From Candidatus Azophilus lithoversatilis (GTDB taxonomy: Bacteria > Pseudomonadota > Gammaproteobacteria > Pseudomonadales > Azotimanducaceae), in contig JAQAJJ010000003.1 of NCBI GenBank assembly GCA_028278675.1, positions 125,042-189,041 on the forward strand: 64,000 bases of DNA. Direction: 5' to 3'. The notes below the pieces were generated by a model. It saw nothing but the letters and a program-made list of their open reading frames with translations. It was not told the DNA's origin and made no database searches. Below are positions 1,455 to 2,520 of this stretch, piece by piece. Both the position numbers and the translations under genes were made by a program. Within the stretch, counting starts at the first letter, position 1. Every line of letters begins with the position of its first letter.

Positions 1455-2435
1455 TCAGTTCCTTGGCTTGCCAGCCCCGGAAGCGACCGGAGTCTTCAAT
1501 GCATGGGACTTCTTGAGCGCTTGCAGGCCAATGAAGTCATGGGCGAGGGTGGCCGCGGCGATGGCGGTGATTTCGGCGTGATCGTAGGCGGGCGCCACTT
1601 CCACCACGTCCATGCCAACGATGTTGAGTGGCCCAAGCCCGCGTACGACAGCCAGCGCTTGGGCCGACGACAGGCCGCCGGCCACGGGCGTTCCGGTGCC
1701 GGGTGCAAAGGCAGGATCCAGGCAATCGATGTCGAACGTGAGATAGGCCTTGCGGTCGCCCACTAGGGCCAGAGTCTCCTTGAGCACCGCGCCCGGCCCA
1801 TGCTCATGCACCCAAGGTGCGTCCAGTATGGTGAAGCCGTGGTCGCTTTCGCTGTAGGCGCGGATGCCAACCTGCACGGAGTGCGCAACGTCGATCAGCC
1901 CCTCGCGCTTGGCGCGCAGGAACATCGAGCCATGATCCAGGCGTTCGCCGTCGTCGGCCCAAGTGTCCACATGGGCGTCAAAATGAATCAACGCCAGTGG
2001 GCCATGCTTTTCAGCGTGGGCGCGCAGCAGCGGATAGGTCACGAAATGGTCGCCGCCGAAGGTCAGCATCATCGCGCCTTGGGCCAAGATTTCGCGGGCA
2101 TGGCTTTCGATCACCGCCACGGCATGCTGTGGATACCCGGAATCGAACTCACAGTCGCCGTAGTCCGCGATACCCAGCGCGGCGAAGGGATCGATGCCAA
2201 AGGGAAACGCCCGTTCAGTGATCTCGGCAAGTTGAACGCTGGCGGCGCGGATGGCCGCCGGACCGAAGCGCGCGCCGGGACGGAAGGTGGTGGCGCAGTC
2301 GAAGGGCAGCCCGGAGACCACGATTTCCGCCCCTTCAATATCCCGCGTGCGCCTGCAGCGCAGAAAGGACAGCGCCCCGCCATAGGTCATGGCTGTGTCT
2401 TGGCGGATGGAAAAGTCCTGTCGCGGCGCTTCCAT
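1455..2435 (-). CDS. speB: Agmatinase / arginase-family ureohydrolase
   Basis: A 326-residue ureohydrolase. The dimanganese site is complete: GGDHF near residue 128, HFDAHVDTW near 150, and FDIDCLDPAFAPGTGTP near 240, giving the His and Asp ligands of the agmatinase/arginase fold. The family hydrolyses agmatine (or another guanidino compound) to putrescine and urea. Compared with the ~306-residue E. coli SpeB it carries about 15 extra N-terminal residues. An alternative start is the second ATG (MTYGGALSF), where family similarity begins; neither has a clear ribosome site. The outer ATG directly abuts dispersed repeat A (from 2433), so the insertion may have replaced the native upstream region. 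It is the first gene of a minus-strand operon with the LLM oxidoreductase and the 2-hydroxyacid dehydrogenase. Substrate could also be guanidinobutyrate or another guanidino compound. Confidence 0.85.
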   Translation of the reverse strand: MEAPRQDFSIRQDTAMTYGGALSFLRCRRTRDIEGAEIVVSGLPFDCATTFRPGARFGPAAIRAASVQLAEITERAFPFGIDPFAALGIADYGDCEFDSGYPQHAVAVIESHAREILAQGAMMLTFGGDHFVTYPLLRAHAEKHGPLALIHFDAHVDTWADDGERLDHGSMFLRAKREGLIDVAHSVQVGIRAYSESDHGFTILDAPWVHEHGPGAVLKETLALVGDRKAYLTFDIDCLDPAFAPGTGTPVAGGLSSAQALAVVRGLGPLNIVGMDVVEVAPAYDHAEITAIAAATLAHDFIGLQALKKSHALKTPVASGAGKPRN

Positions 2436-2520
2436 GGATCAAATCGAGACAGCCCAGCGGCTGGCTGGTTGTTCCTTCGGCGTCGGCGGCGTGCCGCTCC
2501 GGGGCAAGCTAAGGGCTTCC
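2433..2520 (+). repeat. Dispersed repeat A, copy 1
   Basis: An ~88-bp unit that starts at the agmatinase start codon and reads as an open frame beginning MDQIETAQRLAGCSFGV. Other copies are at 8495-8579 (inverted), 13333-13419 and, more diverged, 13421-13509; fragments lie at 13101-13137 and 54966-55004. Copies 1 and 2 share about 70 positions. The remaining gap to the sulfotransferase (2521-2746) shows no recognisable gene. Confidence 0.75.

Follow-up and report, generated by a model that had tools for sequence, protein, structure and literature searches.

Repeat A of Candidatus Azophilus lithoversatilis, a recently amplified 83-bp repeat and very probably a mobile element inserting at CTTC

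Insertion sequences of the IS200/IS605 family have no terminal inverted repeats (TIRs) and insert in a single orientation on the 3' side of a fixed tetranucleotide. Mobile repeats found in frame in bacterial proteins are so far known mainly from Rickettsia and from a few MITEs. The Rickettsia palindromic elements (RPEs) are approximately 105-150 bp long, lie both in and between genes, and add peptides in frame to conserved proteins (PMC2229807, PMC10969869), while their target duplication is given as unknown in a review (PMC2229807). ERIC, Correia-107, and YPAL are small non-autonomous repeats with open frames fused in frame to host ORFs; TIRs are listed for ERIC and Correia, and YPAL is marked as lacking them, with 7 bp of internal pairing (PMC2229807). 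The mycobacterial interspersed repetitive units (MIRUs) are described as inserting at start codons with a -4-nt coupling (PMC12548453), and in PARCEL palindromic DNA inside ORFs encodes an amphipathic repeat of 25 residues (PMC2996958).

We analyzed a window of 64,000 nucleotides from the uncultured gammaproteobacterium Candidatus Azophilus lithoversatilis, in which an initial annotation had described a dispersed repeat, here called repeat A. The host genome (G000; 3.77 Mb, 104 contigs) was compared with the same-genus genomes G002, G004, G007, and G008. Repeat A is very probably a non-autonomous 83-bp mobile element that inserts at CTTC, adds 87 bp, and carries an inherited open frame. As 87 is a multiple of three, the element can land in genes without breaking the frame, and an insertion into a working gene can add 29 amino acids while leaving the gene unbroken.

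Copies, unit structure, and host range

The copies in the window are collected in Table 1. Position 2433 is the first base of the element, which opens with CATG. The inverted copy (8495-8579, -) overlaps the 3' end of a sulfate permease ORF (6736-8529), the last approximately 11 codons and the stop of which come from the repeat; in the relatives, this gene ends without it. An agmatinase ORF (1455-2435, -) has its opening ATG (2433-2435, -) within the CCATGG of the repeat, and the relatives have no ATG there. Judged from the sequence, either the start may have been altered by the insertion or an internal ATG may be the true start.

Table 1. Repeat-A features in the 64-kb window.
Feature	Position	Strand	Remark
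CTTC target, left copy	2429..2432	+	CTTC/CTTT at the left end of 90/111 arrays
Single 83-bp repeat-A element, first copy	2433..2515	+	Insertion of 87 bp when compared with three same-genus genomes
CTTC, right copy / duplicated target	2516..2519	+	
Single repeat-A element, ..CTGAAGGCTC subtype, with flanking tetramers TTTC / CTCG	8491..8583	-	
Old diverged partial unit, not noted in the initial annotation	13219..13291	+	Profile match E=6e-9
Repeat-A unit, third copy	13339..13419	+	90% identical to the 2433 copy
Diverged tandem unit (period 87) with a frameshift in the initial annotation's frame	13426..13505	+	74% identical
Old diverged repeat-A unit lying between two genes, not noted in the initial annotation	54921..55002	+	

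The genome-wide search that the initial annotation had proposed yielded more than 200 units inside and outside the window, namely 217 in 123 places or arrays. These numbers are lower bounds, as the units were counted in regions around matches (394 kb read, approximately 10% of the genome). The 2433 copy alone as a query gave 80 scored genome matches (E=4e-51 for the query copy), a similarity far above chance, and an exact pattern of the 5' end gave 102 matches in the whole genome versus 0 for the reversed control pattern. The median identity of the units to the consensus was 94%. Exact 5' ends numbered 75 in the host genome and 0 in 99 other genomes of the family, and the same-genus genomes held only rare, diverged copies. 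The burst of repeat A is therefore recent and at the species level, and the repeat family is nearly private to its host species. The relatives' MAGs are probably sponge-associated, as read from their bin names.

Exact-pattern scans of viral contigs and of public genome contigs found no repeat A, and a plasmid search gave no match. A looser pattern matched three gammaproteobacterial MAG contigs and one Actinocorallia contig among the public contigs; the estimated chance expectation of this pattern is about 0.5.

The consensus is CTTC-CATGGAACAAATGGAGACAGCCCAGCGGCTGGCGGGTTGTTCCTTCGGCGTCGGCGGCGTGCCGTTCTGGGGCAAGCTAAGGG-CTTC, with the 83-bp element between two CTTC tetramers. CTTC (or CTTT) stands on either side of single copies, and within arrays the CTTC is common to neighbors, giving the period of 87 found in 59 of about 93 neighboring unit pairs. 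GAAG never occurred at the left end (Table 1). After the right CTTC, a C was mildly preferred (30/44 versus a 24% background), the flanks being otherwise free of signal. No terminal inverted repeats were found, the ends CATGGAACAA and CCCTTAGCTT matching at 3 of 10 positions; the element is inserted in one orientation at a fixed tetranucleotide. CTTC at both ends fits a duplicated target and an element-borne terminal CTTC equally well. A subtype with the 3' end GAAGGCTC (the other 3' end being GGGCTTC) is often the 3'-most unit of an array, and the ..CTGAAGGCTC subtype ends with CTCN, not CTTC. Adjacent units were slightly more alike than shuffled pairs of units from different arrays (0.929 versus 0.900), and there were no identical neighbors.

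In contigs C57 (start), C10, C13, C17, C22, C26, C50, and C66 of the host, repeat-A arrays are interrupted by stretches of N or by the end of the contig. The arrays appear to break the assembly (or fall within masked sequence) and are probably longer than counted here.

A second dispersed repeat, the palindrome CGAGGGCGGGACGCCCTCG, was seen at approximately 13155-13173 and 16465-16483 of the window and at many loci of the genus. Exact copies numbered 30 in the host, 186 in G007, 151 in G002, 73 in G004, and 37 in G008, with 0 in four other members of the genus. Some of its copies open with the 5' end of repeat A (CTTCCATGGAACAA.TCCGATTC...).

Empty sites and copies inside genes

Evidence for mobility comes from orthologous empty sites. 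In a MaoC-like gene, a B-family DNA polymerase (PolB), and an SDR dehydrogenase, the net difference was 87 bp in 4/4 relatives (G002, G004, G007, G008), appearing as one clean gap in most of them, and the protein alignments of MaoC and SDR showed exactly 29 extra residues. The empty MaoC-like site reads CGGCGCAG-CTTC-GAAAGC, versus CGGCGCAG-CTTC-[83 bp]-CTTC-GAAAGC when filled. A single CTTC was present at this empty site in three of the four relatives, with CTTT in the fourth; the empty PolB site had a single GAAG (=CTTC) in 3/4 relatives and the empty SDR site a single CTTC in 1/4. A biotin carboxylase, with a linker difference of 87 bp in one relative and of 72 bp in three that have further linker indels, fits as a fourth insertion gene, less cleanly. 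The 2433 copy itself corresponds to an 87-bp gap in three relatives, just upstream of the agmatinase gene, with the empty sites CCGTC/GCGTC and a separate small indel farther downstream. Going by these alignments, the precise 87-bp insertions against orthologous empty sites indicate that repeat A is a real, recently amplified mobile repeat. The suggestion in the initial annotation that the repeat moves as a unit beginning at ATG came close to the truth, as the exact insertions start with CATG beside CTTC.

In-frame inserts of 29 aa were seen in about a dozen genes. With gene calls from a home-made ORF scorer, 16 of the 123 arrays were intragenic, whereas 599 of the 674 CTTC sites of the window (89%) lie in predicted genes. 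Copies are thus strongly depleted in genes, and most gene insertions have been purged. The clear intragenic copies were nearly always single units (13/16, versus 50/107 elsewhere, p=0.014). They use two frames only, the sense frame (F)H-GTNGDSPAAGGLFLRRRRRAVLGQAKGF (GTNGDSPAAG...) and the antisense frame EALSLPQNGTPPTPKEQPASRWAVSICSM (EALSLPQNGTPP...), so that the predicted insert peptides inside PolB or SDR read, for example, TNGDSPAAG or EALSLPQNGTPPTPK. The use of these two frames is explained by the phases available in genes, where CTTC falls in the phase C-TTC 301 times, GAA-G 156 times, and G-AAG 95 times, in the phase of the initial annotation's frame 22 times, and in stop-giving phases 39 times.

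In an AlphaFold model of the SDR protein, built on five sequences, most of the insert had a pLDDT below 50 (residues 59-72 and 76-91), while the rest was Rossmann-like. This hints that the insert may form a disordered surface loop. The AlphaFold models rest on 5-7 sequences each, and the quality of the MaoC-like one was too low for it to be used.

A UbiA-like prenyltransferase ORF (G000:C40:33103-36267, L024) holds a repeat-A array with an internal deletion; its frame is shifted in the C-terminal part and runs into the next gene, and from the sequence the gene is likely damaged. In a CcmI-like cytochrome c biogenesis gene (G000:C53:21721-23055; relatives L095-L098, L102), the linker is hypervariable in the genus, and the repeats within it differ by species, with two repeat-A units in the host and the GAGGGCGTCCCGCCCTC palindrome in G007. 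On account of this hypervariability, the gene was left out as an empty site.

The open frame and rival readings

The initial annotation had taken the open frame as a possible sign of a coding module, either as the origin of the repeat or as its present nature. As it had observed, the window copies at 2433-2519 (+), 8495-8579 (-), and 13339-13419 (+) all read xETAQRLAG.xFGV.GVP..GKL in the frame of the ATG. The related frame ascribed to the more diverged fourth copy did not hold, since the unit at 13426-13505 lacks one base and reads QVETPTGWPGVASISAAHHTGAS*RL; the 13219-13291 unit has a stop in the same frame. Selection for the ETAQRLAG...GKL peptide could be read from the three window copies, from the 126 of 137 full units that are open in this frame, from the period of 87 (3x29), and from some intergenic arrays that form ATG-started ORFs of 2-4 repeats. 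Frame conservation carries little weight, however, as the units are approximately 94% identical descendants of one sequence and 4/6 frames of the consensus are open, so that an open frame needs no selection.

The variation among the units likewise speaks against a coding module. It had no 3-base periodicity (per-site variability 0.078/0.073/0.077 by codon position, permutation p=0.98), and synonymous changes, a comparison proposed in the initial annotation, were not clearly enriched (106 versus 94±8 expected). New stops in the EQMETAQRLAG frame were not avoided when the substituted positions were fixed (2 versus 3.9±1.5, p=0.19); an apparent stop deficit with free positions (2 versus 12.6) was gone once the positions were fixed. 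Indels within units were mostly of 1 bp and not multiples of three, and a 1-bp deletion common to two tandem units of contig C17 shows a frameshift propagated through tandem copies. Free stops and frameshifts, named in the initial annotation as evidence to the contrary, were present in 11 of the 137 full units. In addition, the tandem peptide had no Pfam match above the cut-off, and the clear intragenic copies are read in other frames. A coding module is thus very improbable. The variation points to an open frame that the units inherited from a single, recently amplified master copy and that is not selected as a protein; of the initial annotation's interpretation, the moving unit stands and the coding module does not.

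A structured RNA or a palindromic, hairpin-forming element of the REP, ERIC, or attenuator kind was also considered, given that GGAACAA...TTGTTCC forms a 7-bp inverted repeat, that CCAGCGGCTGG and CGGCGTGCCG are short palindromes, and that single copies fold at -35 kcal/mol. The consensus fold of 155 non-redundant units, however, reached -1.7 kcal/mol in the forward direction versus -1.1±1.3 for column shuffles, and the reverse fold (-4.3 versus -0.6±1.0) consisted of one 4-bp stem without compensatory changes. With neither conserved structure nor covariation in these units and no Rfam match in the window, the hairpin reading is quite improbable.

A MIRU-type regulatory repeat, coupling the translation of neighbor genes, would also be tandem and mostly intergenic with a short ORF. 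The orientation of repeat A relative to neighbor genes was, however, unbiased (32/31/25/19), its ORF stopped at most 5 nt from the next start in only 5 of 56 co-directional cases, and its CTTC target is also used inside genes, which makes such a role extremely unlikely.

Mode of insertion and comparison with described systems

We propose that the mobile element inserts beside CTTC in one orientation relative to it. CTTC would be left at both ends, each insertion thereby amounting to 87 bp, or 29 codons, as the empty sites show. Head-to-tail arrays with a period of 87 would probably arise when new copies insert at the CTTC of one already in place, and also by local duplication. Copies in genes would be tolerated only in phases that read through without a stop, and there the in-frame insertion seen in the alignments would give the host protein a 29-aa insert that, on the SDR model, might be disordered.

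The tetranucleotide is non-palindromic, and insertion at it is oriented and involves no TIRs, which speaks against an ordinary DDE/TIR transposase; by analogy, the mode of insertion resembles the single-strand logic of IS200/IS605. The Y1 transposase (IS200/IS605/RAYT, PF01797) had 0 matches in the assembly, a 99.6% complete MAG, while the controls were positive in 5 genomes. No full-length parent element was seen among the loci read, the transposase search being one for Y1. The mobilizing enzyme may belong to another class, may have been lost, or may lie in an assembly gap. It is possible, though we consider it doubtful, that repeat A represents an undescribed oriented CTTC mechanism without TIR, hairpin, or Y1, a type distinct from MITEs and REP/RAYT whose 83+4 geometry would let it spread through coding sequence and leave 29-aa inserts in dozens of genes.

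Repeat A accounts for odd 29-residue inserts and for tandem 'ORFs' that annotation pipelines would label as genes. Its target is fixed, its size exact, and its burst recent and confined to one species, and close relatives offer clean empty sites; together these features make the insertion mechanism, the purging in genes, and the tolerance of conserved enzymes to peptide inserts directly testable.

Among the described systems, PARCEL is likewise a tandem repeat coding element thought to be mobilized, but repeat A shows no protein-level selection. It shares with MIRUs the tandem and dispersed occurrence, the short ORF, and the apparent mobility, but not the coupling of the ORF to a neighboring start codon (5/56). 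Oriented insertion at a tetranucleotide without TIR is common to repeat A and the IS200/IS605-derived PATE and REP (RAYT) elements; unlike these, it has no conserved subterminal hairpins, and the assembly lacks Y1. In-frame intragenic copies are also a feature of the ERIC, Correia-107, and YPAL MITEs, whereas repeat A lacks the TIR (3/10) of ERIC and Correia-107. These MITEs have TA at the ends where repeat A has CTTC. The CTTC stands at both ends and singly at empty sites, which may reflect a target-site duplication or an end carried by the element itself; the CTC subtype lacks the terminal CTTC.

Like the RPEs, repeat A is inserted in frame in genes of conserved proteins, here PolB, SDR, and MaoC. 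Unlike in the RPEs, for which target duplication is given as unknown, CTTC at both ends could be seen against empty sites. The palindrome or long stem-loop with terminal inverted repeats of the RPEs is absent, and repeat A differs further in its fixed CTTC target, single orientation, head-to-tail arrays, and host. The two were compared by description; their sequences are apparently unrelated, and the window had no Rfam match. Because it lacks the palindrome and TIR, we do not file repeat A as an RPE, nor as a classical MITE; by analogy, it appears to work like an RPE.
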